Positions 4,601-59,043 of a stretch of DNA of 64,000 bases are shown here, in pieces. The notes under the pieces are model-generated. The model was given only the letters and a program-made list of their open reading frames with translations. It did no database searches and was not told the DNA's origin. The stretch comes from Phycisphaeraceae bacterium. GTDB lineage: Bacteria > Planctomycetota > Phycisphaerae > Phycisphaerales > Phycisphaeraceae. The stretch spans positions 1-64,000 of the forward strand of contig PBAS01000028.1 in NCBI GenBank assembly GCA_002716625.1. The letters are read 5' to 3'. Both the position numbers and the translations under genes were made by a program. Position 1 is the first letter of the stretch, and each line of letters starts with the position of its first letter.

Positions 4601-4604
4601 TTAA

Positions 4605-6812: not shown

Positions 6813-6823
6813 GAAAGCTAACC

Positions 6824-9131: not shown

Positions 9132-10694
9132 TCAAACTGAACGTTCGCGATCCTTCCAGTACCGATCTCTCAACTCTCGCTTCACTATTTTTCCATAGTT
9201 GTTTTTGGGAAGTTCATCCATGAAGTCAATGGACTTTGGCTTTTTGTAGCTTGCAATATGCTGTTTGCAAAAGTCAATGAGGTCTTCTTCCGTGACGCTT
9301 TCCGATGGCAGAAGGCTTATCACCGCCTTGATGGACTCGCCCCACTTGGGGTCTGGCACGCCGATGACCGCTACTTCACGCACAGCTTGGTGTTGGACAA
9401 GCACCTCTTCTATTTCACGAGGATAGATGTTTTCGCCCCCACTAATGATTAAATCCTTTGAACGATCCATCAGAAACAGATAACCGTCCTCATCCAGATA
9501 GCCAACATCTCCAGTATGCAGCCATCCGTTGCGAAGCGTTTTTGCCGTGGCCTCGGGGTTCTGCCAATAGCCCTTCATGACCAGGTCAGATCTTGTGACG
9601 ATTTCCCCGCATTCACCGGTTGGCAACTGGCGATCTTGGCCGTCAACAATCGCAATTTCAACATCAGTATGGGCAATACCCGCCGACGCGAGGCGTTTCA
9701 TCTGTTTGTTTGTACCATTTAAGACATGATCCTCATGCGGAAGATATGAAATGGTCATGGGTGACTCACCCTGTCCATAAAGTTGAACCAGACAGGGGCC
9801 AAAACGTTTGATTGCTCTAGTCAAATCCTCAACAAGCATGGGCGAGCCGCCGTAGACGATTGCTTTGAGTGAACTGTGGTCAAACTGGCTGATCGCAGGA
9901 CTATCGACTAGCAGTTTGATCATGGTTGGTGCTCCGAACATGTTCGTGACACGGTATTTTTCAATAGATGATAGGATGGCCTGTGGATCAAAAGACTTTG
10001 AGGCGGGAATAATGTTGGTGCTAGCCTTGGCGATATTGGGTATGGCATACAATCCACTGCCATGGGACAGGGGGGCGGCGTGAATCACCACTTCGTCACG
10101 TCCAAACCCGGGACACATACTGGCAAAAAAATCCTGGGTCATGGCGGTTAGGTTGCGGTGGGTCAGCATGGCACCCTTGGATTGGCCAGTGGTGCCGGAT
10201 GTATAAAAAAGCCAAGCGACGTCATCTGGTTCCACGTCGGTATCCTTGAAATCACCAGAGCTTTCCGCGAGCAGCAATTCATAGTTAAGCCAGCCATCTT
10301 CGGCATCCGACAAGCTGATGAAATGACGCACCTTTGGTAATTGGTTTAGAACGGAGCGTAATGATTCGTTGAATTCAGAGGAAGTGATCACGATCTCCGC
10401 TTCGCTGTGATCGATAATGTAGGAAAACTCATTGGGGTGCAGTCGGAAATTAACCGGGACAGCGCCACACCCTAATTTGAAGCATGCAAATATTGCCTCG
10501 AGCATCTGGGGGTGGTTGTGCATGAGCACCACGATATGTTGCTGTGGAGTTACACCAAGCCGACGCAGGGAATTGGCTAATTGGTTGGTGCGGGTATTAA
10601 ATTGCGCGTAGGTGAACTTGGTGTCACCGTGCACAATGGCGATCTGGTCGGGGAAAGATTGGGCTGATTTGGTTAGAAACTTACCTATATTCAT
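9132..10694 (-). CDS. Acyl-CoA synthetase / AMP-dependent ligase
   Basis: This intact 520-residue AMP-forming CoA ligase belongs to the FadD/class I acyl-adenylate family. The ATP loop is YTSGTTGQSKGAMLTHRN, followed by YGQGESPMT in the position of the A5 motif, then LHTGDVGYLDEDGYL, MDRSKDLIISGGENIYP and the lysine region LPKNNYGKIVKREL. It is probably cytosolic and activates a medium- or long-chain acid, or another carboxylate. It starts 24 bases after the SDR gene on the same strand and is likely co-transcribed with it. Together they form a separate lipid or acid unit opposite the beta-oxidation operon. It could supply the activity lost by the interrupted ligase at 1440-3299. Confidence 0.93.
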   Translation of the reverse strand: MNIGKFLTKSAQSFPDQIAIVHGDTKFTYAQFNTRTNQLANSLRRLGVTPQQHIVVLMHNHPQMLEAIFACFKLGCGAVPVNFRLHPNEFSYIIDHSEAEIVITSSEFNESLRSVLNQLPKVRHFISLSDAEDGWLNYELLLAESSGDFKDTDVEPDDVAWLFYTSGTTGQSKGAMLTHRNLTAMTQDFFASMCPGFGRDEVVIHAAPLSHGSGLYAIPNIAKASTNIIPASKSFDPQAILSSIEKYRVTNMFGAPTMIKLLVDSPAISQFDHSSLKAIVYGGSPMLVEDLTRAIKRFGPCLVQLYGQGESPMTISYLPHEDHVLNGTNKQMKRLASAGIAHTDVEIAIVDGQDRQLPTGECGEIVTRSDLVMKGYWQNPEATAKTLRNGWLHTGDVGYLDEDGYLFLMDRSKDLIISGGENIYPREIEEVLVQHQAVREVAVIGVPDPKWGESIKAVISLLPSESVTEEDLIDFCKQHIASYKKPKSIDFMDELPKNNYGKIVKRELRDRYWKDRERSV

Positions 10695-10718
10695 TTCAGC
10701 ATCATTGAATCCGCTGTA

Positions 10719-11519
10719 TTAATTACTCTTGCATGTCAGCCCACCGTCGACAACAAGCTCAGCGCCGGTGATATATTTTGCCTCATCTGAGGCTAGAAAC
10801 AAGGCGGCATAAGCAACGTCCCACGCATCACCCATCTTGTTCATGGGGCATTGTGCATCGCGTACCGAGATCATCTTTTGTACATCACCGTCTCCATAAG
10901 CATCTTTGAGCGGCTCGATGATCATGGGGGTATTCATTAGGCCAGGCAAGATCGCGTTGGCACGGATGTTCTTGTCTGCATATTGCAGAGCTATTGACCG
11001 TGTGAAGTTGGTGATTGCGCCCTTGGTCGTGCTGTAGCCAATATAAGGGACACCCAGATATCGAATCCCCGCAATAGAGGAAATATTGACAATGGCACCC
11101 CGTCCGCCAGACTCCATGTATGGTAGGACGTACTTGCAAGTGAGAAACATACTTTTGAGATTCACGTCGCAGACGCGATCCCAGCTTTCTTCACTGGTTT
11201 CGACTGGCCCACCCACTTCAACGATACCGACATTGTTATGAAGAATGTCAATCTGGCCATAGGTGTCAATACAACGCTGGACAAGATCTTTGACCTGTAT
11301 CGCATCAACCAGGTCGGCGCGGTGTGTGGCGCAGATGCCACCTTCGCTTTCAATAATGGTTTGGGTTTCGTCGGCTGCGTTTTGGTTGATGTCAACCGCG
11401 AGAATGTTTGCGCCCTCACGAGCAAAGAGTACAGCCGTTGCTTTACCATTGCCCCAACCCGGTCCTGAAGATCCGGCTCCGGTCACGATTGCTGTTTTAC
11501 CTTTTAGTCGTTCAGCCAT
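10719..11519 (-). CDS. Short-chain dehydrogenase/reductase (SDR)
   Basis: This 266-residue classical SDR has an NAD(P)-binding motif near the N-terminus, TGAGSSGPGWGNGKA, which is longer than the usual TGxxxGxG. It also has the structural HNNVG motif (NNAG position), the catalytic Ser in NISSIAG and the active-site Tyr and Lys in YIGYSTTKGA. The C-terminal part ends with ITGAELVVDGG as usual. An acidic residue after the second strand (VDINQ) suggests NAD rather than NADP. It is the first gene of a two-gene unit with the acyl-CoA ligase downstream, so it may act on a hydroxy- or oxo-acyl substrate. Confidence 0.92.
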   Translation of the reverse strand: MAERLKGKTAIVTGAGSSGPGWGNGKATAVLFAREGANILAVDINQNAADETQTIIESEGGICATHRADLVDAIQVKDLVQRCIDTYGQIDILHNNVGIVEVGGPVETSEESWDRVCDVNLKSMFLTCKYVLPYMESGGRGAIVNISSIAGIRYLGVPYIGYSTTKGAITNFTRSIALQYADKNIRANAILPGLMNTPMIIEPLKDAYGDGDVQKMISVRDAQCPMNKMGDAWDVAYAALFLASDEAKYITGAELVVDGGLTCKSN

Positions 11520-11988
11520 ATGTCCTTATCCGGTATTACGTGGTTCATCTGCTCTCTTGGCAATAAACATCAGGAACATTGCTGGTCAAGGTTCTAATGT
11601 ACACGATTAAATATAGTAATGTCTGAGGTGAAAACTAGCGGCCCCAATATCTTGGCAGTTAGAGTGCTTTTGGCATTCATCAGCATGCAACATGTTGATT
11701 TTTTTTTGAGAGTAGTCGGATGCAACCCTCCTGTACCTGAGCATGTATTTAGATGAGGTTAAATCCAACTTGTCATGTTCAATTTGAACGGGCTGTGGGG
11801 TGTGGCAATGAGAGATCAGCCATAGATGTGCAATAACCACGGTTGCATGAGTGATCTTTGCGAAACCCAAGAATACGTGATCTGCTGGATGTCCCAGTGA
11901 GGTGGTTTGGAGCAGATGGAAGTAATTGGTTTCTCTTGCCAGGGTGATCAAGCACTGTCTGGTGGAAATATGTAGGCGATTAACTGGT
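11520..11988. other. Gap downstream of murB, no supported gene
   Basis: About 470 bases separate the murB stop from the SDR start, both on the minus strand. An open frame at 11607-12062 (minus) begins inside murB in another frame and shows no family signature or coding character, so I leave it out. No terminator-like hairpin stood out. Confidence 0.45.
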
Positions 11989-12912
11989 TTAGGGCCAGAC
12001 CACAATCTCGCGTTCCAGTCGAATCCCAAACTGCTTGTATACCACTTCCCCAATGTGCTCAAGCAAAGCTAACACGTCCGAGGTGGAAGCTCCGTCATTG
12101 GCAATCACGAAGTTGGCGTGTTGGTCTGAGACCTTGGCACCACCAATTTGGTGGCCTTTCAATCCAGCACGATCAATCAGCATGCCTGCTGATTTGGGGA
12201 CATCGGCTGGGACTTTAAGGGGGTTTTTAAATGCGCAGCCACAGCTGTTGGCAGCCAGGGGCTGGCTCTTTTTTTTAAATTGAAATATTTCCTTGATGCG
12301 TGCTTTGACTGATTGTGGATCCTGTGGTGTTAGGGTGAACTGGGCTGCCAGGATAAATAGTTCAGATATATTCGTCTTGCGGTAGTTGAATTTTAAATTA
12401 TCGTGATGTCGCCACGAGACCATTCCGCGGTCATCCATAACCTGTACCTGATGTATGCTTTTGCCGATATCGCCAAAAACCCCACCTGCATTCATTCTTA
12501 CTGCGCCGCCTACTGTGGCAGGTATACCTGATAAGCACTCAATACCTTCAAGTCCAGCTCTTGCTGTTTGTAGGACTAATTGTGGCAGGTCGACTCCGGC
12601 GCCGGCAGTCATGTGTGACGGATTGAATTCAACTTGTTTAAATTCAGGGTCATCCAGCTGGATTACCACACCGTCGACACCCGAATCAGCCACCAGCAAG
12701 TTGGCTCCACTCCCAAGGACGTAAACAGGCCACTGATCCTGCCAGCAACGTTTGATGACAGCGGACAGGTCCGACTTGTTTGATGGATGGACCATCACTT
12801 TGGCCGGGCCGCCAAGTCCGTACCATGTGAATGGGGCAAGGGGTACATCGAGTTCGTATTTTACGTTTAGGCCACCGAATAGATGGTCAGCGTTTTGATT
12901 TTCCGGTGTCAT
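11989..12912 (-). CDS. murB: UDP-N-acetylenolpyruvoylglucosamine reductase
   Basis: MurB reduces UDP-GlcNAc-enolpyruvate to UDP-MurNAc with NADPH and FAD, the second committed step of peptidoglycan synthesis. The FAD-binding signatures are present: TWYGLGGPA, VLGSGANLLVADSGVDG, GIPATVGGAVRMNAG and NFRK-like NYRKTN. The C-terminal substrate region shows SCGCAFKNP, GMLIDRAGLKG and HANFVIANDG. The Ser/Cys region and the lack of the extra domain fit the type II enzyme. The ATG at 12912 gives 307 residues, normal for the family. An upstream ATG at 13026 lies inside mnmA and would add 38 residues that match nothing. The gene follows mnmA by 76 bases. Confidence 0.93.
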   Translation of the reverse strand: MTPENQNADHLFGGLNVKYELDVPLAPFTWYGLGGPAKVMVHPSNKSDLSAVIKRCWQDQWPVYVLGSGANLLVADSGVDGVVIQLDDPEFKQVEFNPSHMTAGAGVDLPQLVLQTARAGLEGIECLSGIPATVGGAVRMNAGGVFGDIGKSIHQVQVMDDRGMVSWRHHDNLKFNYRKTNISELFILAAQFTLTPQDPQSVKARIKEIFQFKKKSQPLAANSCGCAFKNPLKVPADVPKSAGMLIDRAGLKGHQIGGAKVSDQHANFVIANDGASTSDVLALLEHIGEVVYKQFGIRLEREIVVWP

Positions 12913-12988
12913 AATAGTTGTGGTTATGGTTTTTGATAATAGAAATGTGGATACGTGGTTCCGGATTTCCCCAACAAAATCCGCGTGC

Positions 12989-14155
12989 TTAATTGAATTC
13001 GGCGCAGTCAATCCACCCGCCGCCAATTAGTTGATCGCCTAGATAGCATACCGCAGCCTGCCCTGGGCTTATAGCACGTTGCGGGCGTTCGAATTGGACC
13101 CTGAATTTTTTCTTGTCTGGTGTAATCTCAATACACGCATTTGTTGGTTGACTGTTTGACCGGATTTGGATCTTGCAATTGATTGGTGTGTCTATGGGTA
13201 GATCTACTAGCCAGTTTGCCTGATCGGCAACAAGCTTGTTTGATTCCAAATTTCCTGCATCTCCGATGGTTACCGTATTGTTGCCGGCATTTTTGGCGGT
13301 CACGTAGATTGGATAGCCCAGTGCCACATTCAATCCTCTTCGCTGACCGATCGTGAAATGTTGATGGCCAGGGTGTGTACCAAGAACCGTACCCTCTTGG
13401 TTCTTGATGGGCCCGGGAGTGATCTGGTCGGGTGTGGTTTTCCTTACGAATCGGGCGTAGTTGTTATCCGGTACGAAACAGATTTCATAGCTATCCGGCT
13501 TGGCATGTACCGGCAGTCCTTTGTCCTCGGCGATTTGCCGTGTCTGCTTCTTTTCTAGTTCGCCAATTGGCAACAACATCCGGTCCAGTACTTTTCTTTG
13601 GGTCCCAAAAAGGACGTAACTCTGATCTTTGTGCGTATCAGTGCCTCGCAAGAGTTTCGTTTCAGTCCCAGATCGATCAATGCGGGCATAGTGTCCGGTC
13701 GCCACGTAGTCCGCATTGATACTTTCAGCATACTTGACCAGTTTGCCGAATTTCAGCCAGTCGTTACAGCGAACACAGGGGTTTGGTGTACGTCCACGGT
13801 TGTATTCTTCCACGAAATAATCGATGACTCGTCCAAAGTCGTTCTTGAAGTTTAAGACATATAACGGTATATCCAGCATTGCAGCCACCAGCCGTGCGTC
13901 CGATGCGTCATTAAGTGAACAGCATCCTTGCTGATTGGGTTTGGCGGTCTGGCTAGGGGAATCGACTTCCAGTGGCTTGGCGCAATGATCCTGGTGGTCG
14001 GCCATGTCGACTGAATCGTCACTACCCAAACGCATGAAACAACCCACAACGTCATAATCTTGGTCTTGCAGAAGCGCTGCAGAAACCGAACTGTCTACCC
14101 CCCCACTCATGGCCACAAGGACTTTTTTTCGATGTTGGTGGTTGCTCATGGCCAA
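12989..14155 (-). CDS. mnmA: tRNA-specific 2-thiouridylase
   Basis: MnmA activates U34 of the tRNAs for Lys, Glu and Gln with ATP and transfers sulfur to position 2. The N-terminal PP-loop AMSGGVDSSV is at about residues 15-24. The two catalytic cysteines are in NPCVRCND and EICFVPD, and TGHYARI is also conserved. The length of 388 is slightly longer than usual. The extra part is at about 45-80, rich in polar residues, between the PP-loop and the next conserved block; it includes a QGCCS motif in the place of the usual CCS. It lies directly upstream of murB on the same strand. Confidence 0.94.
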   Translation of the reverse strand: MAMSNHQHRKKVLVAMSGGVDSSVSAALLQDQDYDVVGCFMRLGSDDSVDMADHQDHCAKPLEVDSPSQTAKPNQQGCCSLNDASDARLVAAMLDIPLYVLNFKNDFGRVIDYFVEEYNRGRTPNPCVRCNDWLKFGKLVKYAESINADYVATGHYARIDRSGTETKLLRGTDTHKDQSYVLFGTQRKVLDRMLLPIGELEKKQTRQIAEDKGLPVHAKPDSYEICFVPDNNYARFVRKTTPDQITPGPIKNQEGTVLGTHPGHQHFTIGQRRGLNVALGYPIYVTAKNAGNNTVTIGDAGNLESNKLVADQANWLVDLPIDTPINCKIQIRSNSQPTNACIEITPDKKKFRVQFERPQRAISPGQAAVCYLGDQLIGGGWIDCAEFN

Positions 14156-47138: not shown

Positions 47139-48986
47139 GTGTTTATACGACCACCTTCTGAGAATCCCAGGGCAGGTTGCAACTGGTTAACGGACTGTTC
47201 ACTCGTGGTTAGGATGACTGCTGCGGTTGTGATTATCCTGGCCATAACCCTCGCAGGAGTATTCTGGTGGTCGGGGCACCAGCATCAGAAGTTGATCCAA
47301 GATCTTCGGTCACAGCAGGTGAAAACACTATCTAGTGACCTAGTACATACCTCCAAGGTGTTTCTAGGTGACGATAACCTCAGGCATGTTAAACAACTGG
47401 TTCGAGACTTTTCCGCCCGCCACCAACTTACCCAATGTCGATTGATTCTGCCTAATGGCGTCATCCTTGCGGATGCCCATGGGGCTTCTAGGGTGCAGGA
47501 TGTGTTACCAGATTCATGGCCTTCGGGACCATATACCCATTCAATTCCGGCCGAGGTTGATGATGGGACCGTTGATATTCAAGTTGCATTTGATGTGACG
47601 GGACGCGGACCAGTTGTTTTGCAAGTTTCTGCCCTGGTTACTGGCAACCAAAATTTAACCCTACAGGCTTTTTTCGGGTATGCGGGTATTATTATTATCG
47701 CAGTGTTTTCACTGCTTTTGTGGGGCCGGTATTTATTGGCACCCCTTCGCTCAATTGAAACAATTCGCCATGCATTGCTAGCACTAGACAGTGGAGAAAA
47801 GTCCTACAGTGTGCTTGCCATCCATAACCAGTCGACTCCGGAGGTGAATGGATGGAACAGGATCATTGGGGATATCTTAAAGCTTGAAGAAACTGCTATT
47901 GAAAGAAATAGCCAGCAATCACTTTTGGTGTCACGTAAGTCAACTGCGGGATTGGAAGGTGCCTGCGACGCAATGTGGCACGGTATCATCCTTCTCGATA
48001 ATAAAATGTGCGCCAGGTATGCTAATGGTGCTGCTGCTGTTCTACTGGGAATGGAGCGTGGTGAGATCATTAGCAATAAATTATCCACCTTTATTGCTCA
48101 GGAGGATATTCTAAAGGCGGTCAAGGAAACGATTGACGGTTCATCTCTGCACCGCAAAGTTTTTGAGCATCAGTTGCAATCCAATGATGCCGAGGCCGGA
48201 CAACTTCGCATAAGCGTTCGTCCTGTACGCAGAGAGGATCCGGGCTCGGTGATTATGATTATCGAGGACATCACGCAGTTGCGTGCTGCAGAAGATGCTC
48301 GCCATTCATTTATTGCACAGGCAACACATGAACTTCGCATGCCTTTGACCAACATATGTCTGTATGTCGAGGAAGCCCTAGGGAATGATGATACGAATCT
48401 AGAATTGCACGCCAAATGCCTAAACGTGATTAATCAGGAAGCTCATCGATTGGAACGCGTAGTTGGTGAGATGCTTTCAGTCGCGCAAATTGAATCCGGG
48501 GTCCTTGGAATTGAACGCGATGATGTGCCGATTGGTTCATTGATCAAAGAACTGGAAAATGACTACCAGGTACAGGCGCAAGAGAAGCAGATTCGGTTGA
48601 CTTTCCATCAATCGCCCAAACTGCCCACGCTCTATGGTGACCGGGATAAGATCGCATTAGCATTGCACAATCTTCTGGGTAACGCAATTAAATATACCAC
48701 GTCCAATGGCCAGGTTGATGTCCGAATTGATGGGGATGAAAACTTCTTTGCCGTGGTCATTGAGGATACGGGTATTGGGATTGATCCCAACGATTTAGAA
48801 CATATATTCGAAAAGTTTTATCGTGGAAAGGACGGTCGCATTTCGAAGATTGCCGGTTCGGGGCTCGGATTGGCGCTAGCCCGTGAAGTCATGAGGTTGC
48901 ACGGGGGTGATATTGTTGCTGAATCCAAAATAGATGAAGGCAGTAAATTTACCCTTACCATGCCGTTAAAAGCGGAGGTGGCATAA
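47139..48986 (+). CDS. Membrane sensor histidine kinase
   Basis: The 615-residue kinase has two membrane helices (about 25-46 and 178-198) around an outer sensor domain, then a HAMP-like linker, a PAS-like domain (about 275-375) and a kinase core. The phosphorylated residue is His397 in QATHELRMPLTN, and the ATP-binding domain shows HNLLGNAIKYT (N box), VIEDTGIGI (G1) and GSGLGLALAREVM (G2). The GTG start is supported by GGGGAG six bases before it. A later ATG at 47214 would cut 25 residues. The STAS and pilus genes follow directly, and no response regulator is next to it on this strand. Confidence 0.92.
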   Translation: MFIRPPSENPRAGCNWLTDCSLVVRMTAAVVIILAITLAGVFWWSGHQHQKLIQDLRSQQVKTLSSDLVHTSKVFLGDDNLRHVKQLVRDFSARHQLTQCRLILPNGVILADAHGASRVQDVLPDSWPSGPYTHSIPAEVDDGTVDIQVAFDVTGRGPVVLQVSALVTGNQNLTLQAFFGYAGIIIIAVFSLLLWGRYLLAPLRSIETIRHALLALDSGEKSYSVLAIHNQSTPEVNGWNRIIGDILKLEETAIERNSQQSLLVSRKSTAGLEGACDAMWHGIILLDNKMCARYANGAAAVLLGMERGEIISNKLSTFIAQEDILKAVKETIDGSSLHRKVFEHQLQSNDAEAGQLRISVRPVRREDPGSVIMIIEDITQLRAAEDARHSFIAQATHELRMPLTNICLYVEEALGNDDTNLELHAKCLNVINQEAHRLERVVGEMLSVAQIESGVLGIERDDVPIGSLIKELENDYQVQAQEKQIRLTFHQSPKLPTLYGDRDKIALALHNLLGNAIKYTTSNGQVDVRIDGDENFFAVVIEDTGIGIDPNDLEHIFEKFYRGKDGRISKIAGSGLGLALAREVMRLHGGDIVAESKIDEGSKFTLTMPLKAEVA

Positions 48987-48992
48987 AATATC

Positions 48993-49328
48993 ATGGAGAT
49001 ACAGGAACATCGCCATGGCGCGGTCGTTGTACTCAAGCCACTGGGACCACTTTGTCTGAATGATGCCGAGATATTCCGCCAGCGAATGTTCGAGGTCATG
49101 GCCAAAAGTCGTGGCCATTTTGTTATTGATGTGTCAGCCGTGCCCTACATCGACAGCCAGGGGCTCGAAGCCATGGTGGACACATCGGAAGTTCTGTCGC
49201 AAAGCGGCCAGTCATTCAAAGTATGCACCGTCAACAATACATTGCACGAGGTGTTGGCTTTGACGGGTTTTGCATCACATTTTGAATCATACGAGAAGGT
49301 GACTGATGCGGTGAGGAGTTTTCTGTGA
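48993..49328 (+). CDS. STAS-domain protein (anti-sigma factor antagonist-like)
   Basis: This single-domain protein of 111 residues has the STAS fold, as in SpoIIAA and RsbV. The signature VPYIDSQGLEAM places the phosphorylatable serine at residue 55. Such proteins bind partner kinases and release sigma factors or regulators depending on phosphorylation. It starts six bases after the kinase gene and its stop overlaps the gspE start (GTGA), so it is translationally tied to both. Confidence 0.9.
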   Translation: MEIQEHRHGAVVVLKPLGPLCLNDAEIFRQRMFEVMAKSRGHFVIDVSAVPYIDSQGLEAMVDTSEVLSQSGQSFKVCTVNNTLHEVLALTGFASHFESYEKVTDAVRSFL

Positions 49329-51088
49329 CCACCAAACGCCACACCACGAGAATAGGCGAGGCGCTGATTGAGCAGGGCGAGTTGTCGCAGGAACAACTCA
49401 ATGATGCGCTGGAACATCAGAAAAACACGGGTCGTCTGCTTGGTGAATTACTGGTTGAGCAAGGAACGATCACCAGTGCGACGCTGGTTCAGGCCTTGGC
49501 CAAGTGCCTCGCAGTTCGTGGTTGCCATCTGCGACACGGGCTGATCGATCCGGCGCTCATGACGTTGGTTGGTGAAGAAGAGGCCGAGCGCATGCTTGTG
49601 ATGCCGATGTTCCGCGTGCACGATACGTTGACGGTGGCGATGGCCGAGCCGCAGTCATTGCCGACCCTTGATCGGTTGCGGCGGTTGACTGGCTGCAAGA
49701 TTCGTCCTGTGCTTGCACTGGAACCCAATATTCGGGAGTTCATTGGTGAGTATGCTGGAGGCAATGCGAGTGTTGATTCATTCCTTGCCACGCTCACGGA
49801 TTCAGATGTCGAGGTTATTGATCGTGAAAAGGTAGATGAAGGACCAATCACCGACCTCGATCAAATGGTTGCTGACAGTCCGATCGTCAACCTTGTCAAT
49901 GTTGCGTTATTAACGGCCATTCGTGATGGTGCCAGTGATGTTCATATTGAACCGCAGAGCAAGGGGACACGGGTCCGGTATCGGATCGACGGTATTCTGC
50001 GTGACCTGATGAAGCCGCCTATGGGCATGCATGCGGCGATTGTGTCAAGGGTCAAGGTGATCGGCAAGATGGACATTGCCGAAAAACGCCTGCCCCAGGA
50101 AGGCCGCGTGCGAATTGTCGCAGAAAATCGTGAGATTGATTTGCGTATTTCAAGCATGCCCACGTTACTTGGCGAGAAATTGGTCATACGCCTTCTCGAT
50201 AAAGAAAATCTTAAAGTTTGCATGGAAGATCTTGGTTTTCGGATGGAGACACTGGCGGCATTCAAGGAGGTTCTCAACCAGCCCCACGGGTTGGTACTAG
50301 TGACGGGGCCAACGGGAAGTGGCAAAAGCACCACACTCTATTCGGCCCTTGATTTATTGCGAAGTTCGGAGACCAACATCCTGACAGTTGAGGATCCAGT
50401 GGAATATCAACTTGAGTTAGTCAATCAGATCCAGGTTCACGAGTCAATTGGGATGACCTTTGGACGAGCACTGCGCAGTATCTTGCGCCAGGACCCGGAT
50501 ATCATCATGGTTGGTGAGATTCGCGACGAGGAGACGGCTCGTATCGGTGTGCAAGCAGCATTGACTGGGCATCTAGTGTTGGCCACCTTGCATACAAACG
50601 ATGCAGCTGGTGCTGTTGCTCGCTTGCTTGACATGAACGTCGAGCCCTATCTGCTGGCCACCGCGCTGAATGGTGTTGTGGGGCAACGGCTGGCTCGTAC
50701 CATCTGTTCTAGTTGCCAGACGAAGTATTATCCGTCCGCGCGTGTATTACATGATGCCGGGTTGGATCATTCCAGAGGCAAGGTCTTTCTCAAAGGCAGT
50801 GGTTGTCAACAGTGCCACAACAGTGGTTATCTGGGTCGGATTGGTGTTTTGGAGTTCATGGCGATCACGCCGGAACTTCGTCGCATGATCCACCGGTCTG
50901 CTCCATCTCATGAGCTGCGTCGCCAAGTGCGTCAACAAGGAGGTCTCACGCTTCATGACGAGGGCGTACAGTTAGCGCTGGATAACAAGACATGCCTTGA
51001 AGAAATCTTGCGTGTTACCCAGTATGACGATGATCTTGGCATTGAAAACAGCACGTCACATGAAACAAAATCTCGGAGTGTGGCATGA
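49325..51088 (+). CDS. gspE: Type II secretion / type IV pilus assembly ATPase GspE/PilB with MshEN-like N-terminus
   Basis: The hexameric ATPase drives pilus or pseudopilus assembly from the cytosol. The N-terminus (about 8-60) carries two consecutive MshEN-like repeats, RIGEALIEQGELSQEQLNDA and LLGELLVEQGTITSATLVQA, a type known to bind cyclic di-GMP. The core has Walker A GPTGSGKSTT with Lys334, the Asp box VTGPTGSG/TVEDPVEYQ, Walker B LRSILRQDPDIIMVGEIRD (given in part), and the tetracysteine zinc site CSSC...CQQC. Its GTG start overlaps the STAS stop and its own stop overlaps gspF. Confidence 0.95.
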   Translation: MTTKRHTTRIGEALIEQGELSQEQLNDALEHQKNTGRLLGELLVEQGTITSATLVQALAKCLAVRGCHLRHGLIDPALMTLVGEEEAERMLVMPMFRVHDTLTVAMAEPQSLPTLDRLRRLTGCKIRPVLALEPNIREFIGEYAGGNASVDSFLATLTDSDVEVIDREKVDEGPITDLDQMVADSPIVNLVNVALLTAIRDGASDVHIEPQSKGTRVRYRIDGILRDLMKPPMGMHAAIVSRVKVIGKMDIAEKRLPQEGRVRIVAENREIDLRISSMPTLLGEKLVIRLLDKENLKVCMEDLGFRMETLAAFKEVLNQPHGLVLVTGPTGSGKSTTLYSALDLLRSSETNILTVEDPVEYQLELVNQIQVHESIGMTFGRALRSILRQDPDIIMVGEIRDEETARIGVQAALTGHLVLATLHTNDAAGAVARLLDMNVEPYLLATALNGVVGQRLARTICSSCQTKYYPSARVLHDAGLDHSRGKVFLKGSGCQQCHNSGYLGRIGVLEFMAITPELRRMIHRSAPSHELRRQVRQQGGLTLHDEGVQLALDNKTCLEEILRVTQYDDDLGIENSTSHETKSRSVA

Positions 51089-52317
51089 AGCTGGCGTATA
51101 CCGCATTTGATCAAATGGGTCGGGCTGTGACCGACCAGATTGAAGCCGTTAATGCGACTGAAGCAGGTGACCTTCTGCGGCGCCGCGGATTGTTTGTTAC
51201 AAAGATTGGCGGATCTAGTTCTGCTACGCAGACCACGAAGGTCCATCGCGGACCGGTGACCGGTCGGACACGGCGTCTTAAACAAATACAGGTGTTTACC
51301 CGGCAACTCTATGTTCTGGTGGCTTCGGGTACTTGCATTGTTGAAGCGATGGAAACTATCGAATTGCAGGTGAAGGATTATGTATGGCGTGGCGTGATTG
51401 GTGATGTACGCCGCAATGTTGAGGAAGGTTTAAGCCTGGCGGAGGCTATGGCCGCCCACCCCCACTACTTCGATGCGATTACCCGAAACTTGATTGCTGC
51501 TGGTGAATCGACTGGAAAGATGCCGGCAATGCTTGAGCGGCTATCGGTTCTCATTCAAAAACAAGTACAAGTGCGGTGTACGCTTGTGGGGGCCATGATT
51601 TATCCCGCCTTATTAATGGTTATCTCGGTTGTGGTGCTGGTGGCAATGATGTTTTTTGTTCTCCCCAACTTTGCGGGCATGTTTGCAAACCTAGATGTGG
51701 CACTTCCACCCACGACCCGGTTTCTCGTGGCCTTATCGGATCTCATGCGTGGGTACTGGTGGGCTCTGATTGTGGCTTCAATTGGAGTTGTGGTGGGCGC
51801 TTATGTCTGGTGTGGAACGCCATCAGGAAAAATTCTTATTGATACCCTGATTCTGAAAATTCCTTATATGCGAATCATCATGCGCGACTTTATGACGGCA
51901 CGAATTGCCCGTCTGCTTGGTTTGCTGCTTGGTAGCCATTTGCCACTTTTGGAAGTTCTGGGTTTGATCCGCCAGACAACCGTCAACTGTCATTATCAAC
52001 AGCTTGTTGTGAATGCGGAAGATGCAGTGACACGGGGAAACCCAATTAGCGCCGTCTTTGGTCGCAGTGATCTGATCACACCCTCGGTCCGTCAGGTTGT
52101 CAAGAGTGGTGAACATAGCGGACAGGTCGGCCCCTTACTTTTGAATATGGCAGATCTTATGGATGAAGAAAACGACATGTTTGTCAAATCAATCACTGGG
52201 ATTATTGAGCCAATCATTCTTGTTGTGTTGGGTCTGCTAGTTGGGTTTGTGGCCATCAGCATGTTTCTTCCACTTTTTGACTTAATGGGTGGCGCTACAG
52301 GAACGCCGGTAGGATGA
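51085..52317 (+). CDS. gspF: Inner-membrane platform protein GspF/PilC
   Basis: GspF is the polytopic platform of type II secretion and type IV pilus machines. The protein has the duplicated T2SSF domain: FTRQLYVLVASGTCIVEAME with the first helix group, and ARIARLLGLLLGSHLPLLE with the second. Membrane helices lie at about 170-195, 222-245 and 375-400. The first residues carry the usual small N-terminal domain (AYTAFDQMGRAV). Its ATG overlaps the gspE stop and its TGA overlaps the pilM start, both as ATGA. Confidence 0.94.
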   Translation: MKLAYTAFDQMGRAVTDQIEAVNATEAGDLLRRRGLFVTKIGGSSSATQTTKVHRGPVTGRTRRLKQIQVFTRQLYVLVASGTCIVEAMETIELQVKDYVWRGVIGDVRRNVEEGLSLAEAMAAHPHYFDAITRNLIAAGESTGKMPAMLERLSVLIQKQVQVRCTLVGAMIYPALLMVISVVVLVAMMFFVLPNFAGMFANLDVALPPTTRFLVALSDLMRGYWWALIVASIGVVVGAYVWCGTPSGKILIDTLILKIPYMRIIMRDFMTARIARLLGLLLGSHLPLLEVLGLIRQTTVNCHYQQLVVNAEDAVTRGNPISAVFGRSDLITPSVRQVVKSGEHSGQVGPLLLNMADLMDEENDMFVKSITGIIEPIILVVLGLLVGFVAISMFLPLFDLMGGATGTPVG

Positions 52318-53366
52318 ATATTTTGCACGCTAACCGAACACCGATTGGTCTTGATTTGGGTGACTGGTTTATCAAGGCTATTCAGCTTTCACGTGCCCAG
52401 GGAAAATGGCAGATTGCAGCTGCTTCAATTATTCCGCGGCTACGGCCGGGTGAGCCGATTGATCTCGCCGAAATTGAACGTCTAACGGATATACTGGATC
52501 GACAAGGATTCAGAGGCCGGCGTATTGTGACCGCACCAAGTGGAACCCAAGTGGCCTGTGAAGCCCTTGAGTTGCCGCCACGGGAATCAGGCGCTCCAAT
52601 CGAACAGATCGCACGAATGGAAATTGCGAGGTTGCAGCGACTAGAACCGGAATCGTTTGAAATCGCCCTGTGGGATATCCCCGGCTCCACCCGCAGTTCC
52701 TCATCTAGCACAGTGATGGCGACATCCTATGCGCACGAGAAGTCTGACGCTCTTATTAATTTGCTTGAATCATGTGGTTGGGTGGTTTTCGCCATTGATC
52801 TCAAAGCGTGGGCGTATGCTAGATGTGCGGCGCATGGTGCATTACCTCAGCCCGTAGCAGTTGTGGACTGTGGTGCTCATGCCACATCATTTGTTTTATT
52901 GGATCAAGGTAATGTTACGTATGAACGGACACTAAGTGAGATTTCTTTTGCTTCGCTGACGGACTTGATTTGCAAACAATTTAAAACAAATCAGTTGACA
53001 GCCGAATACCTAGTCCGTCAGATGTCAGAACCGATCTGCCAGGTAGATATGGATCGCCAAAAGGATGATCAGTGGTCAGAGTTACGTGCTATGGTGCAGG
53101 AGTTCGAAGAAAAACTTTCGGCACAACTTCAAGTATCATTGGATTATGTATCACGACGGTATGCCCGATTGAACCTGTGCCACATCCGATTGGTTGGCGG
53201 TGGTGCTTTGGTTGAAGACCTTGACCTGCGCCTGGGTAAACAGCTTGGTCTCACTGTAAAAAAGTTGACGCCAAGTGAGTTGTTTAAATATCAGCCTTGG
53301 ATTGGTCAGGCATGCCAAAGCCCAATACTCACTGCATCGCTTGGATTGGCACTTTACGAGTTGTAA
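52314..53366 (+). CDS. pilM: Pilus assembly protein PilM
   Basis: PilM is a cytoplasmic actin-like protein that binds the N-terminal tail of PilN. The actin-fold motifs are visible: phosphate 1 in IGLDLGDWFIKAIQL, and phosphate 2 in AVVDCGAHATSFVLL, then IRLVGGGALVEDL at the adenosine end. The length of 350 fits the family. The ATG overlaps the gspF stop, and the pilN gene follows within eight bases. Confidence 0.92.
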   Translation: MNILHANRTPIGLDLGDWFIKAIQLSRAQGKWQIAAASIIPRLRPGEPIDLAEIERLTDILDRQGFRGRRIVTAPSGTQVACEALELPPRESGAPIEQIARMEIARLQRLEPESFEIALWDIPGSTRSSSSSTVMATSYAHEKSDALINLLESCGWVVFAIDLKAWAYARCAAHGALPQPVAVVDCGAHATSFVLLDQGNVTYERTLSEISFASLTDLICKQFKTNQLTAEYLVRQMSEPICQVDMDRQKDDQWSELRAMVQEFEEKLSAQLQVSLDYVSRRYARLNLCHIRLVGGGALVEDLDLRLGKQLGLTVKKLTPSELFKYQPWIGQACQSPILTASLGLALYEL

Positions 53367-53373
53367 TCTAGAG

Positions 53374-53976
53374 ATGAACCGAATTAATCTTGTTCCTACA
53401 TACCGAATACATGCATCCACGCGTCGCTCGCAGATCCGGTTATGGTCGGTATTTGCTGCAGTCTACTGCTGTTTTATTTCGGTCATCGCGGTGGGAATGG
53501 CCGTGGCCTTCGACACGAAAAAAGATAGCTTGGTTGACGAGTTGACCCTTTTTGAATCGCAAATCAAGAGTGCCGAAGATGCCATCAGTTCACTTGCTCC
53601 AGTGCTGGATGATGCCATCCTGGCTTTGGCTGCGAGCAAGGCCGTTGCCAAGCAGCCTGATTGGAGTCAAGTGCTTGGGTTGATATCCAAGGCTCTGGGT
53701 GGTCAAAACATTGTCTTGCGTCGTTGCCAGCTAAAGCCGGCAATCGAGAATGGTGCCCAACCTCGGCAGCCAACTTATGGTGGCCCGGTTTTGTTGGTCC
53801 GCGGGTTGGGGCAGTCCCAGTCACATGTTTCAAATTTTGTTTTGGGCCTGGAACAACTGAGGCTCTTTGATCGTGTTGAAGTAGTTGCCAATAGGCGTGA
53901 ACCATTTTTAGGAGGTTATGCCGTAGGATTTGAACTGGAATGCCTATTCCATCACGAACCCGGAGGCTCGCCATGA
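53374..53976 (+). CDS. pilN: Pilus assembly protein PilN
   Basis: The 200-residue bitopic protein opens with MNRINLVPTYRI, the conserved tail that PilM binds (INLVPxxx). One membrane helix follows (about 28-50), then a coiled region and an outer ferredoxin-like domain with VLLVRGLGQSQSHVSNFV. The ATG at 53374 is chosen because it starts this conserved motif; an upstream frame from 53275 overlaps pilM. The stop overlaps the pilO start (ATGA). Confidence 0.9.
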   Translation: MNRINLVPTYRIHASTRRSQIRLWSVFAAVYCCFISVIAVGMAVAFDTKKDSLVDELTLFESQIKSAEDAISSLAPVLDDAILALAASKAVAKQPDWSQVLGLISKALGGQNIVLRRCQLKPAIENGAQPRQPTYGGPVLLVRGLGQSQSHVSNFVLGLEQLRLFDRVEVVANRREPFLGGYAVGFELECLFHHEPGGSP

Positions 53977-54542
53977 CCATTCAAAAACGGCAATTCTTTG
54001 GCAATTGGGGGGTCAACTCGGTTGGTTGTGGTGTCTGCTTGATATTTACCATAGGGGCCTATGTCGTTCTAATACATCCGTTTTGGCAGCACAACAGCGT
54101 GCATGCTCAGCAAAAACAACAACTATCGTCCTATTCTGTCAAGCTGCGCGAAAGAACAAATCATCTTGGTCATCTCCAGCATCGGTTAGATGGTGTCCGT
54201 CGTCACCTCAAGGCGGGTGCGTTGCAGTTGAAACCAGCATCCGTTATTAATCAGCACCTAGCAGCCTTAACTGACCTGGCGAATGAATATCATCTCAATG
54301 TCGGTACGATCCAGCCGGAATCAGCTATCCATAATCAGCAGTACGCCGCCGTACGAATCCGGCTGACTGCTAGTGGTGACTTCCCGAATTGCACTCGGTT
54401 CCTCCATGCCCTACACGTACAGTTTCCTGATACCAGTGTTTCGTCCTTCGATTTGGCTGGTGAACCACGAGCATCCGGTACGCCAGTTCGGTTTGAGATT
54501 GATTTAGAGTGGTACACCACCCCCACTGCTTCGACGCAATAG
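53973..54542 (+). CDS. pilO: Pilus assembly protein PilO-like
   Basis: The product of 189 residues has one N-terminal membrane helix (about 18-40), a coiled-coil segment (45-85) and an outer ferredoxin-like domain, the PilO pattern; the sequence is only weakly conserved. The ATG at 53973 overlaps the pilN stop as ATGA. Its place after PilM and PilN in the operon supports the call more than the sequence does. The domain end shows VRIRLTASGDFPNCTRFL and FEIDLEWYTT. Confidence 0.8.
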   Translation: MTIQKRQFFGNWGVNSVGCGVCLIFTIGAYVVLIHPFWQHNSVHAQQKQQLSSYSVKLRERTNHLGHLQHRLDGVRRHLKAGALQLKPASVINQHLAALTDLANEYHLNVGTIQPESAIHNQQYAAVRIRLTASGDFPNCTRFLHALHVQFPDTSVSSFDLAGEPRASGTPVRFEIDLEWYTTPTASTQ

Positions 54543-54707
54543 CGGTCAAATCCAGCATGATCAATAAATATAGTGAGGGTTTACAAGCTAGACGTCTTTA
54601 TTTGTCTCATCGTAGAATTGTGATTTGCCGGCTTTTCAGTGCCAATCAAATTTATTTAAAATTATGGTTTGCTTTGTCTCCGCTTATATCTTTTATTTGT
54701 TTCAGTA

Positions 54708-55262
54708 ATGCAAAAAGCTAAGAAGAAAATCTATTTTGCGATTCTTTCGATTGTTATGCCTGCACTGGCATTAGACAAGATGTTTTTCGGTGCATCGGAA
54801 CCAGCCGCGGCATCTGCTCAATCCTTTCAGGTCATGCAACCAGAGTTAGTGATTAGGGAGCCAGCAGTTATCGCCCAGACTCATCAAAGGTTAGATCCCA
54901 ATGTACTCCGGGCCGAGATTGCTAGCCGAATTGCCAAGACCGCGCAGGAAGAGCAGATCAACTTGGATCAACTGGCCGATGTGTTGGTGCCTGGTGATGA
55001 TTGGTTTCGGGGTGTTACCTCAGCTGGTCGAGGGGTAAGGTCATCCGTATCCGACCATCGGTTAACTGCGGGATATAAATTAACGGCGGTCATGGCTTCG
55101 TTGCGAGGCGGTATGGCCATGATCAATAATGAACTAGTTCAGATAGGGAACCTGGTGGATGGTCTGACACTGATTGCAGTAGGACCAAACTGGGCTGATT
55201 TGAAGACCGAGGCCGGGCAGGTTATGCGGATTGAAATGAATAGTGTGAAATTTACAAAGTAA
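54708..55262 (+). CDS. Membrane-anchored pilus or secretion accessory protein, PilP/GspB-like
   Basis: The 184-residue protein has a basic N-terminus (MQKAKKKIYF), one membrane helix (about 8-28), a long polar linker and a C-terminal beta-rich end with NNELVQIGNLVDGLTLIAV and VMRIEMNSV. This pattern of a small beta domain repeating a value ...G..v.G..v resembles the end of PilP and GspB/GspC, which links the inner-membrane PilNO complex to the secretin. The family match is weak; the operon position after PilO supports the role. About 165 AT-rich bases separate it from pilO, so it may have its own promoter. Confidence 0.6.
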   Translation: MQKAKKKIYFAILSIVMPALALDKMFFGASEPAAASAQSFQVMQPELVIREPAVIAQTHQRLDPNVLRAEIASRIAKTAQEEQINLDQLADVLVPGDDWFRGVTSAGRGVRSSVSDHRLTAGYKLTAVMASLRGGMAMINNELVQIGNLVDGLTLIAVGPNWADLKTEAGQVMRIEMNSVKFTK

Positions 55263-55398
55263 ATATCACCAATATATCTTCAACTTACAAGTGCACTATT
55301 AAGGTAAACCAAGGTTCCGTCGATCAAATTCAAGGTGCATGAAGATCATGGGGCGCCAGGTTACGATTATTCTAAAAATACAGGATGGAGAACAGCAA

Positions 55399-55884
55399 AT
55401 GAATTATTCACGTAAAACACGAGGTGGTGGCTTTAGTCTGCTTGAATTGGTGATCGTGGTCGTGATTATTGGGGTTATTTCAGCCATTGCGATTCCACGA
55501 ATGACACGTGGTGCATCCAATGCTGGTGCGACAGCATTGCGGGCGAATCTTGCAGTTCTCCGTAACGCAATCGAGATCTACCGAGCGGAACATCAAGGAG
55601 CGTTCCCTTCTGCAGAATCCTTCAAGCAACAGCTTACGATGTACACCAAGGCTGATGGTACTAATTGGAATGTGGCACCAGACACTGATACCGACAGGAT
55701 TTATGGCCCCTATATTCGAGCGGTACCGATGCTTCCGGTTGGGGCTAGGAAGAGTCAGGTTGGTGTTGCTGCAGCGGATGGGGCGCTTATTGGTTGGATT
55801 TACGATGAAGTGACTGGTGTGATCACCAGCAATACGACATCGCAGGAAGTTGACATCAACGGTGTACGATACGATTCCTACTAA
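55399..55884 (+). CDS. gspG: Type II secretion major pseudopilin GspG
   Basis: This 161-residue prepilin-like protein has the type III signal peptide MNYSRKTRGGGFSLLELVIV, with cleavage between Gly and Phe and glutamate at +5 (FSLLE), and a hydrophobic helix VVVIIGVISAIAIPRM. The globular part has the GspG feature of a calcium- or domain-like end with GPYIRAVPMLPVG and WIYDE. The ATG at 55399 has GGAG nine bases upstream; earlier starts (55339) precede the signal by 20 residues. A strong terminator follows. Confidence 0.9.
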   Translation: MNYSRKTRGGGFSLLELVIVVVIIGVISAIAIPRMTRGASNAGATALRANLAVLRNAIEIYRAEHQGAFPSAESFKQQLTMYTKADGTNWNVAPDTDTDRIYGPYIRAVPMLPVGARKSQVGVAAADGALIGWIYDEVTGVITSNTTSQEVDINGVRYDSY

Positions 55885-55971
55885 TATAAACACCACAACA
55901 TACTATTCGTCAGTTGTGGGGCGGAAAGCACCAGATATCATCTTTCAACTGACGATGAAAAAACAAGGATA

Positions 55972-56022
55972 AACTGCGACGTGATCGCTGCTCTCAGCAA
56001 TCAGGTCGCAGTTCTTTTTTTT
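55972..56022 (+). terminator. Intrinsic terminator after gspG
   Basis: A 9-bp perfect stem (AACTGCGAC and GTCGCAGTT) closes a 24-base loop and is followed by C and eight T. It lies about 90 bases after gspG. The next gene starts only three bases after the T tract. Confidence 0.8.
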
Positions 56023-56024
56023 AG

Positions 56025-56528
56025 ATGGTTATGATCTCCCCGCACGATTACGATCACAGAAATCCGGGTGCCAATGGTTGGTGTCCTGCATTTAGCTTAC
56101 TTGAGATTATTGTTGTCTTGAGCATCGTCACGATCTTGTCTGCCGTGATTATGCCCTGGTATGCTGGAGCCCTTGCACGTTACCGTAATGATGCTGCTGC
56201 ACGCCGAGTGGTGGCAGACCTTGAACGAGTGTCCAAGGAGGCCATGAATACCAGTACCAGTCATGCCCTCACTTTTGATGTGAGTGGCGACAACTATCGA
56301 TTGGTGAATATAAAGCGGTTCGGCCAGAAGAACTTGGCGAACATTGTTGAACTGTCTGGCGAGCCATATTACACCACCATTGTGACTGCAGAATTTGAGG
56401 GTGGGGATACCGTGGTCTTCGATGGCTATGGTAACCCGGACAAGGGTGGCAGTGTGGTAATTGGTTTCGGATCCACCCAAAAGATAATTGTTTTTGATAA
56501 ATTGTCCGCAAAGGCAACCATCCACTGA
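56025..56528 (+). CDS. gspH: Minor pseudopilin, GspH-like
   Basis: The 167-residue protein has a prepilin N-terminus with 22 leader residues, then PAFSLLEIIVVLSIVTILSA. The glutamate at +5 is kept, but the residue before the cleavage site is alanine instead of glycine, which is unusual for prepilin peptidase. The rest (VVADLERVSKEAMNTSTSH, given in part) is typical of GspH/FimT: one helix, then a beta-rich domain (NYRLVNIKRFG). The start at 56025 lies directly after the gspG terminator and has no ribosome-binding site; the ATG at 56031 is equally possible. Confidence 0.82.
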   Translation: MVMISPHDYDHRNPGANGWCPAFSLLEIIVVLSIVTILSAVIMPWYAGALARYRNDAAARRVVADLERVSKEAMNTSTSHALTFDVSGDNYRLVNIKRFGQKNLANIVELSGEPYYTTIVTAEFEGGDTVVFDGYGNPDKGGSVVIGFGSTQKIIVFDKLSAKATIH

Positions 56529-56626: not shown

Positions 56627-58225
56627 TTATGCTGCCAGGTCACTATGATGGATATGGCGGGCGTGCATCTTGTTATAGGGTTCAATATCAATTTGTGATA
56701 TGAGATTAGCGATCTGTGGATCGAATTGTGTTCCCGCGCACTGGTCAAACTCAGTCAGGACTTGTTTATGGGGTAATGCGGGACGGTAAGATCGATTTGA
56801 ACTCATCGCATCATATGTATCGGCAACACAAAGTATTCGGCCGATCAATGGAATGTCCTGGCCGGCCAAACCCTTTGGATATCCTTGCCCATCCCACCTT
56901 TCATGGTGATACAAAACACCTGGTAAGACATCCGACAAGGTTGGAATATCCTTCAGGATGCGATATCCGATAACCGGGTGGTTCTTGATTTGTGTAAATT
57001 CACTGGCAGAAAGGTGCCCTGGCTTGGTCAGTACGGCTTCAGGGATGCCAATTTTTCCCACGTCATGGATGAGCCCGGCGATGCGATAACGCTCTGCGAT
57101 TTGGTCTCCCAGCCCTGCTTCTAATGCCAATTGGCTGCCAAGCAATCCGACTCTCTCAGAGTGGCCAAATGTATAGCGGTCTTTAGCATCAATAGATGCG
57201 GTCAGTGCCTGAAGGGTTCCCAGAAAAAGCGCTCGTTGTTCGTCATGGCGGGCCGCATTTTCATGGAAGACACTGAAGAACTCGGTAGCTGCAACAATCA
57301 TTTTTAATTCAACGCTGCTGATATCGGGATCAGTTCCTGTTTTGTTGCCGGCAACCACAGCCCCAATCACTTCGCCGCCATGAGTGATCGGATGAGCAAT
57401 CACCTCGCTTTGGGTGATCTGTGGCAGCCCCGCGATGTTCTGTGGGAGTATTGGGTTCCAAGAATCTTTATCCATGGCAGCAAGCAGGTGTTGCATGTGT
57501 TGCCTGAACCTGATTGGGTCACAGGGTACCCGTCCTGAAATTTTTGACCGGTTGGCAAGGTCTGTGAGGACCTGGCTCTTATCACTGAATCCGATAGCAA
57601 CCCAGCCAAACGGTAGGTGTTCAAGTAATTGCTCGCAGGCAGTATCAAGAAATAGATCGGGGTCCGTTAACCGATTCATTAAATGACCAATATTATACAA
57701 CAAGCTCAATTCTTCATACGAATGAGCCATGTTCTCACTGAATCCTGCGATTGCCTTTTCGTCACGTTCAGACGATGCCAGATCTTGATGGCTCCAGGAA
57801 AGTACCTGTTGTAGTTGATCAAGATCGAATGTTGACCCTGCGGCATATCTTACCAGTGTACTATGGCATAGACCCGCGGAATGGTCTGAATCGGTGTAAA
57901 TCCTATCGAAATCATTGTTGTGGATGCCATGTGGCGTGACGGCCATGACCAGAGTCAGTCCTGTACGACGTGAAGCTTGCTGATGAATGAACGGGAGCAA
58001 GTAGCAGCCGTCACAAATCTCAACAGGTTGTGGATCTGGCGTGGCCATTAATGTTTTGGCCGTATGCTTAGCCTGTTCCAAGAGTTGCGGAATAAGCCAG
58101 GCACCTGAGCCCCCGATATTCACCTCCTCCTCGACAATCCGGCCCATATCATCGAACTGCCAACATGATAATCGCAAATCACGACACCGCTGGATAAAAC
58201 GCTGGGGAGACTGCCCATCATTCAT
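56627..58225 (-). CDS. HD-GYP domain protein with GAF-like region (predicted cyclic di-GMP phosphodiesterase)
   Basis: The 532-residue protein has a GAF-like middle region (about 170-320) and a complete HD-GYP domain at the C-terminus (about 345-520). The metal-binding HD motif is HDVGKIGIPE (about residue 387), followed by HHERWDGQGYPKGL, where the GYP motif is kept. Such domains hydrolyse cyclic di-GMP. The ATG at 58225 overlaps the stop of the response-regulator gene (ATGA); an upstream start would run into that gene. It converges with the pilus operon. The receiver is a separate protein here. Confidence 0.92.
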   Translation of the reverse strand: MNDGQSPQRFIQRCRDLRLSCWQFDDMGRIVEEEVNIGGSGAWLIPQLLEQAKHTAKTLMATPDPQPVEICDGCYLLPFIHQQASRRTGLTLVMAVTPHGIHNNDFDRIYTDSDHSAGLCHSTLVRYAAGSTFDLDQLQQVLSWSHQDLASSERDEKAIAGFSENMAHSYEELSLLYNIGHLMNRLTDPDLFLDTACEQLLEHLPFGWVAIGFSDKSQVLTDLANRSKISGRVPCDPIRFRQHMQHLLAAMDKDSWNPILPQNIAGLPQITQSEVIAHPITHGGEVIGAVVAGNKTGTDPDISSVELKMIVAATEFFSVFHENAARHDEQRALFLGTLQALTASIDAKDRYTFGHSERVGLLGSQLALEAGLGDQIAERYRIAGLIHDVGKIGIPEAVLTKPGHLSASEFTQIKNHPVIGYRILKDIPTLSDVLPGVLYHHERWDGQGYPKGLAGQDIPLIGRILCVADTYDAMSSNRSYRPALPHKQVLTEFDQCAGTQFDPQIANLISQIDIEPYNKMHARHIHHSDLAA

Positions 58226-58656
58226 GCTGCTCGTTCCCCGTAGGCGTTTTGACCGTACCAGTGGCAACTCTGGTTGGTTTGTTGGGTTTGTTTTAATAGC
58301 GTGGTTGCCTTGCAAATCAGGTTCCTGGCACTAAACGGTTTGGAAATCAAATGTTTGATATTTGTTGCGATTAACTGCTGTGGAGTCAATTTGTGTCCCA
58401 GTCCCGTGAGCATCATGAGAGGAATTTGTTGAGTCTTGGCTTGGTTTTTGAGTTTGACCGCAATTTCGTAACCATCCATAACCGGCATCTGGAAATCGGT
58501 GATTACCAGATCTGGCAGGATCTTGCTGATCAGGTCGAATGCTTCTTGGCCATCGTTGGCAACAAGCACATCATGGCCTGCCTGCTTTAGCTTGTGGCTA
58601 AGTAGGTGTGTGATGTGGCTTTCGTCATCGGCAATGACGATCCGTGTTGTGTTCAC
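58222..58656 (-). CDS. Single-domain response regulator (receiver)
   Basis: This 144-residue protein is a CheY-like receiver. The acidic pocket is IVIADDES, the phosphorylated aspartate is in DLVITDFQMPVMDG and the conserved lysine in LISKPF. It has no output domain, only a short basic tail. The GTG start at 58656 is supported by AAGGAGA seven bases upstream, stronger than any earlier start (58686). It overlaps the HD-GYP gene, so the two probably form a unit in which phosphorylation controls phosphodiesterase activity. Confidence 0.92.
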   Translation of the reverse strand: MNTTRIVIADDESHITHLLSHKLKQAGHDVLVANDGQEAFDLISKILPDLVITDFQMPVMDGYEIAVKLKNQAKTQQIPLMMLTGLGHKLTPQQLIATNIKHLISKPFSARNLICKATTLLKQTQQTNQSCHWYGQNAYGERAA

Positions 58657-59043
58657 TGATGAATCTCCTTGGAAGATGATCATCAACTAGCAGCTATAAG
58701 CTGACTTGAATGAAATTAATATCGGTCCGATGGCTGCGGATAATAAGGCGTAACCGGTGATTCTAGAGTGGGTTTCAGGGATAATTAAGGAAGGACAATT
58801 CGTATAAGTTAAAAGGAAGATCCACGAATTGTGATCTAGGTTGGTTTGGGATGTGTAGGATCTTTTAGAGGGTTGTAGGGAATGGCTTGGTACATCAAAT
58901 TTTTTACTTCACAGGAATTTAAGCTATCAAGGATCTATAAACACTTGAAATCAGAAGGCATATCAAGAACACCAGCCAGGCGGTTTTTGAGCCATGAATG
59001 CGAGTGCTAGAGTTGGATCATCATGCGGTCTGATTTGAATACT
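58657..59043. other. Gap upstream of the response regulator
   Basis: About 390 bases lie between the receiver start and the GltS-like stop. It should hold the promoter of the receiver/HD-GYP unit. A 42-codon frame at 58882-59010 (plus) has a basic, mixed composition but no family match or ribosome-binding site, so I do not call it a gene. Confidence 0.4.

Follow-up and report, generated by a model that had tools for sequence, protein, structure and literature searches.

In environmental bacteria of the phylum Planctomycetota, genes for a STAS protein and a histidine kinase nearly always stand ahead of the gene for the engine of a pilus or secretion machine, and a gene for an HD-GYP protein is often close by. 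The arrangement is present in the window, a stretch of 64,000 nucleotides from a Phycisphaeraceae bacterium (contig PBAS01000028.1, positions 1 to 64,000). We lean towards the view that these genes form an old, Planctomycetota-wide cassette dedicated to the type IV filament extension motor, which combines a kinase-response regulator-HD-GYP-c-di-GMP branch with a STAS switch. The more specific proposal that the STAS protein is a dedicated subunit or clamp of the extension ATPase, gated by serine phosphorylation, acting alongside c-di-GMP and ancestral in part of the Planctomycetota, is a tentative one, to which we give a little less than an even chance.

Gene content and layout of the operon

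Open reading frames (ORFs) and family searches give the gene order histidine kinase-STAS-GspE-GspF-PilM-PilN-PilO, followed by a PilP-like gene and two pseudopilin genes, all on the plus strand and tightly coupled as far as PilO. The first gene encodes a sensor histidine kinase (47139-48986; Pfam and NCBIfam matches) and is separated by a 6-base gap from the gene for a single-domain STAS protein of the anti-sigma-antagonist type (48993-49328; PF01740, E = 2e-15; TIGR00377 above cut-off). The latter overlaps by 4 bases (GTGA) the gene for a GspE/PilB-type extension ATPase with an N-terminal MshEN domain (49325-51088; T2SSE, E = 2e-133; MshEN, E = 6e-15). Further 4-base overlaps join GspE to the GspF/PilC platform protein (51085-52317; two PF00482 domains, E = 7e-49; TIGR02120), GspF to PilM (52314-53366; PF11104, E = 4e-14; TIGR01175), and the PilN-like gene (53374-53976), which follows PilM after a 7-base gap, to a PilO/GspM-like gene (53973-54542; PF04350, E = 2e-6; NF040576). 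The PilN-like protein was assigned by a weak PF05137 match (E = 0.016) and by positional homologues in relatives. The PilP-like gene (about 54708-55262, start codon uncertain) begins 165 bases after PilO; it and the genes for a GspG-like major pseudopilin (about 55399-55884, start codon uncertain; N_methyl motif; TIGR01710 below cut-off) and a GspH-like minor pseudopilin (56025-56528; TIGR01708, E = 5e-8, below cut-off) are spaced by about 140-165 bases. The first-pass annotation had described this ten-gene content, its order and its short gaps and 4-base overlaps, all of which were confirmed by ORFs, Pfam and NCBIfam.

The conserved neighbourhood extends past the ten-gene set. Just downstream of the operon, on the opposite strand and convergent with it, are genes for an HD-GYP c-di-GMP phosphodiesterase (56627-58315, minus strand; PF13487, 124.8 bits) and for a single-domain response regulator paired with it (58222-58686, minus strand), which is homologous to the regulator of operons with the order kinase-regulator-HD-GYP-STAS-GspE; both genes belong to the neighbourhood. 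The HD-GYP protein has the intact catalytic HD and GYP motifs of a phosphodiesterase, and the phospho-acceptor aspartate and the lysine of the response regulator can be read from its sequence.

Machine type and remaining components

An extension ATPase, a platform protein and prepilins with the N-methyl motif place the machine in the type IV filament superfamily (T4P/T2SS). Neither GspC nor a GspL in the form of a PilM-PilN fusion was identified, PilM and PilN being separate genes and the PilP-like protein matching PilP, and the T2SS equivalog scores fall below their cut-offs (GspE, 578 versus 630 bits; GspG, 47 versus 89 bits). The separate PilM, PilN, PilO and PilP characteristic of type IVa pili are present, PilN by a weak match and PilP by fold. 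The type IVa PilB equivalog is also below its cut-off (576 versus 676 bits), and the operon contains no PilT-like gene, such genes occurring on other contigs only (for example, C54). The ATPase reaches neither cut-off, with similar scores for the GspE and PilB models, and in the PDB it is PilB proteins that match its sequence best. For the PilP-like protein, Pfam and NCBIfam gave no match; it has positional homologues in relatives, and the top three PDB matches of its AlphaFold model are PilP structures (probability 0.99-1.0), with E-values of only 0.04-0.09 that are supportive and below strict significance. Because PilM and PilN are separate and a PilP-like protein is present, the inner-membrane complex appears to be of the pilus type rather than that of a classical T2SS with GspL. 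The mixture of Gsp and Pil names that had left the machine type undecided in the first-pass annotation is real: pilus-kind inner-membrane parts occur together with GspG/GspH-like pilins.

A secretin and a prepilin peptidase, previously noted as missing, are indeed not encoded between 47 and 56 kb, but the genome, whose assembly is 88 percent complete, has both on other contigs (secretins at C1:16324 and C22:32476; prepilin peptidase at C61:60607). The C1 secretin lies in a minus-strand cluster (L063, G000:C1:6000-25990; 6898-13396) of a pilin, two small genes, the secretin, a TPR lipoprotein and an HD-GYP gene. This cluster is likely a remnant of the second operon form described below (type B) that lacks the kinase, response regulator, STAS, GspE and GspF genes, and its HD-GYP protein groups with type-B HD-GYPs in the tree. 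It likely supplies the secretin for the machine of the window. A separate PilB-PilT-PilB-PilC-like cluster, with no STAS gene alongside, is located on the minus strand of contig C54 (L074, G000:C54:1-19900; 394-6885).

Conservation of the STAS-GspE linkage

A search of 60 relatives with the STAS protein identified about 27 close homologues. The order from kinase to PilO is kept in 26 STAS regions (L033-L058), followed by PilP and pilins where the contig is long enough; most members that were missing from these regions were recovered by profile searches, and in one region (L051) the contig is so short that it covers STAS-GspE only. At loci of this form that are uncut by contig ends, the kinase-STAS-GspE order is retained. 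The first-pass annotation had proposed a wider survey of gene neighbourhoods, which was run with STAS and GspE profiles on 61 genomes: among the 65 GspE genes that matched best (counted at E <= 1e-200), 63 are directly preceded by a STAS gene on the same strand. One of the two exceptions (G016) has, at the expected position, a STAS that has diverged (L176, score 40), while the other (G032:C44, L177) is truly without STAS. The latter locus (G032:C44:52000-70000) holds a related PilM-PilN-PilP-GspE-GspF cluster and is a natural comparison for the contribution of STAS. Among 294 Planctomycetota genomes, adjacent STAS and GspE genes recur in about a dozen families. A scan of named contigs, which used the closer STAS entries and was able to find close relatives only, returned 19 close loci, including one in the complete genome of strain ZRK34; all are from Planctomycetota and most are labelled Phycisphaerales or Phycisphaeraceae.

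With an upstream STAS at nearly every such GspE gene and the pair found again in many families across the phylum, an accidental adjacency of kinase and STAS genes in one genome has virtually no chance of being the explanation and is rejected. The functional tie of the kinase-STAS pair to the machine, suggested earlier from the window, is strongly supported by this phylum-wide conservation, and the pair may act directly on the motor.

Two operon forms

The window represents one form of the operon (type A); a second form (type B), often found in the same genome, has the order secretin, TPR lipoprotein, histidine kinase, response regulator, HD-GYP, STAS, GspE and GspF (for example, L061, L132, L133, L136, L138-L142, L145, L176, L179 and L180). 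The type-B STAS gene comes directly after the HD-GYP gene, often with a stop-start overlap. In some members of the phylum the operon has kinase and response regulator genes with STAS-GspE but lacks HD-GYP (L135, L137, L144, L146 and L147), and in L178 STAS stands beside GspE with kinase and response regulator undetected. Because it stays beside GspE in these loci, STAS is the operon member most strictly tied to GspE.

Some STAS-linked operons have a PilT-like ATPase between PilB and PilC (L143 in G127, 9170-10240; L130 in G169, 10285-11862), a gene content that suggests that these members may build retractile pili. L143 also encodes a 500-residue membrane protein (5494-6996) between the response regulator and STAS, the place of HD-GYP elsewhere.

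Among 27 type-A loci, 16 have a response regulator gene, an HD-GYP gene or both in the sequence fetched around them; at the other 11 neither was found in the fetched stretch, which partly reflects short contigs. The HD-GYP tree places the type-A-linked proteins in a single clade (SH-aLRT 95) that lies within the HD-GYPs whose genes stand between those for kinase and STAS in type-B operons. Only three HD-GYP genes were found in the genome of the window, namely one in the window, one next to the secretin on C1 and a third on C26; two are beside filament genes. Two GGDEF proteins have an intact motif, this count of c-di-GMP enzymes comprising HD-GYP and GGDEF proteins.

The position of STAS directly behind HD-GYP in type B would also be expected if STAS acted on the HD-GYP protein or the response regulator and not on the motor, in the way that HsbA targets HsbD, a diguanylate cyclase, in a known pair of a STAS protein and a c-di-GMP enzyme (PMC6482189). 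However, type A and several type-B loci have STAS next to GspE with no HD-GYP alongside, and we regard such a target as quite unlikely.

The STAS protein

The STAS protein of the window combines the STAS fold with a phosphorylatable serine in a DSxG motif (D54-S55), as do SpoIIAA and RsbV, and among solved structures it is closest to anti-sigma-factor antagonists such as TM1442 and SpoIIAA. Ser55 is kept in all 52 sampled GspE-linked STAS proteins and is also present in unlinked ones. A glutamate at position 59 accompanies it in 49 of the 52 linked proteins versus none of 11 unlinked proteins, a small sample picked by profile score, which gives the linked proteins the signature DSxGLE. In a tree of these 63 sequences, one branch (support 97/97) separates the 52 linked from the 11 unlinked proteins; within the linked group type A is a clade (96/93), while type B is less sure (76/0). 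Apparent fusions of STAS to other domains in L013 and L042 were rejected, the long frame being a mere open frame that overlaps the kinase gene.

The operon of the window contains no RsbW-type kinase gene next to STAS and, more generally, no gene for a serine kinase or a PP2C phosphatase. The genome does encode two RsbW-like kinases and three SpoIIE-type phosphatases, but both kinases adjoin their own, other STAS. These kinase-STAS pairs (L074, 17842-18658; G000:C29:23478-24161) are ordinary partner-switching modules.

The STAS protein could be viewed as an ordinary RsbV/SpoIIAA-type antagonist in an RsbW-type anti-sigma partner switch that controls transcription of pilus genes, its place in the operon serving feedback only. 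The nearest solved structures, the invariant Ser55 and the availability of RsbW-like kinases and SpoIIE-type phosphatases speak for this explanation; the separate clade with a signature unlike that of unlinked STAS, the lack of an RsbW gene in the operon, the attachment of the RsbW genes of the genome to other STAS and the tie of STAS to GspE speak against it, and we consider it unlikely.

It is very improbable that signal and motor genes share an operon for co-expression only, with the kinase serving an unrelated transcriptional regulator. Co-expression can conserve gene order, but here conservation spans distant families with a single STAS clade, HD-GYP is common to both operon forms, and at 24 of 26 type-A loci a stop-start overlap couples STAS to GspE, a count that is partly automatic since CTG-TGA contains GTGA. 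The reading preferred here remains a cassette dedicated to the motor.

Motor and kinase domains

MshEN receptors of c-di-GMP are defined by two 24-residue motifs with Arg, Gly and Gln. GspE of the window scores above the cut-off of the c-di-GMP motif model NF053729, and motif I (R9, G11 and Q32) is invariant in 26 type-A homologues. Motif II is degraded and lacks R38 and Q61, whose counterparts in MshE are among the c-di-GMP-binding residues (PMC5013675). Judged from these motifs, c-di-GMP binding by GspE is plausible; because motif II is without Arg and Gln, binding may be weak or absent. Among type-A proteins, ND1 is more conserved than ND0, a pattern in keeping with, but not proof of, a possible partner on ND1.

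The kinase consists of a transmembrane segment, a periplasmic PAS/Cache-like sensor (about residues 44-180), a second transmembrane segment, and PAS, HisKA and HATPase_c domains. The H-, N- and G-boxes are intact in the homologues that were checked, and the protein qualifies as a two-component sensor histidine kinase. The best match of the AlphaFold model of the sensor (pLDDT 84) is the extracellular PAS-like domain of WalK/YycG, with a supportive E-value of 0.001 that is below strict significance. A HisKA kinase is not expected to phosphorylate serine.

A model for motor control

Because a response regulator, an HD-GYP protein and MshEN all belong to the conserved set, the kinase branch likely runs from kinase through response regulator, HD-GYP and c-di-GMP to the motor, with STAS as a separate switch. 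We infer the following scheme, including its phosphorelay pairing, the sign of its c-di-GMP control, STAS-GspE binding and Ser55 phosphorylation. The WalK-like PAS/Cache domain would sense a periplasmic signal and the kinase would phosphorylate the stand-alone response regulator, which in turn would control the paired HD-GYP protein and thus the local c-di-GMP level. The MshEN domain of GspE would read c-di-GMP and set filament assembly. The stop-start coupling to GspE, the persistence of STAS without HD-GYP and the precedent of MlaB and MlaF argue for STAS as a second switch: it is made in translational coupling to GspE and may bind this ATPase, most likely at the N-terminal domains, or bind the GspE assembly, much as MlaB does with MlaF. 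STAS might then be released or engaged when an RsbW-type kinase encoded outside the operon phosphorylates Ser55.

Relation to known systems

Filament ATPases are regulated via N-terminal domains in both MshE (PMC5013675) and the PilB-PilZ system (PMC8389850). Like MshE/MSHA-type and PilB-type pilus ATPases whose MshEN domain binds c-di-GMP (Vibrio MshE, Thermus PilF), GspE of the window has MshEN motif I and the ATPase core, but it lacks the Arg and Gln of motif II and is encoded with STAS and a histidine kinase. The likeness proposed here to PilB-PilZ-FimX of Xanthomonas is that of a small cytoplasmic protein acting on PilB-type N-terminal domains with a tie to c-di-GMP (PMC8389850); here, however, the small protein is STAS and not PilZ, and PilB of X. 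citri is without c-di-GMP motifs. MlaB is the STAS subunit of the ABC ATPase MlaF, with the phospho-site position within the interface (PMC7367683), and is likewise a single-domain STAS encoded with an ATPase, although of a different ATPase family; in the present proteins the serine is invariant and the sequence closer to anti-sigma antagonists. STAS output is tied to c-di-GMP in HsbR-HsbA-HsbD, through HsbA-HsbD, and to the development of pilus-driven motile filaments in HmpUVW of Nostoc, through HmpV (PMC6482189, PMC6495340), whereas the operon described here has no PP2C or RsbW partner and links STAS directly to the motor gene. No description of STAS with PilB/GspE in such an arrangement was found in the open-licence literature, in agreement with an earlier remark to that effect, and STAS goes unmentioned in a 2024 review on how PilB is controlled.

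What turns the extension motors of pili and secretion systems on or off is under active study; c-di-GMP and PilZ/FimX-type cofactors are among the direct regulators already known. The present findings suggest something new, a conserved regulatory cassette on a type IV filament motor, apparently for dedicated control of the engine gene. The STAS protein, co-inherited with the motor across the phylum, together with the kinase and HD-GYP, provides concrete partners for testing in the Planctomycetota, whose attachment and secretion are little understood. If STAS does act as a clamp or subunit of the ATPase, pilus or secretion motors would have a second kind of switch, one that had not been described before.
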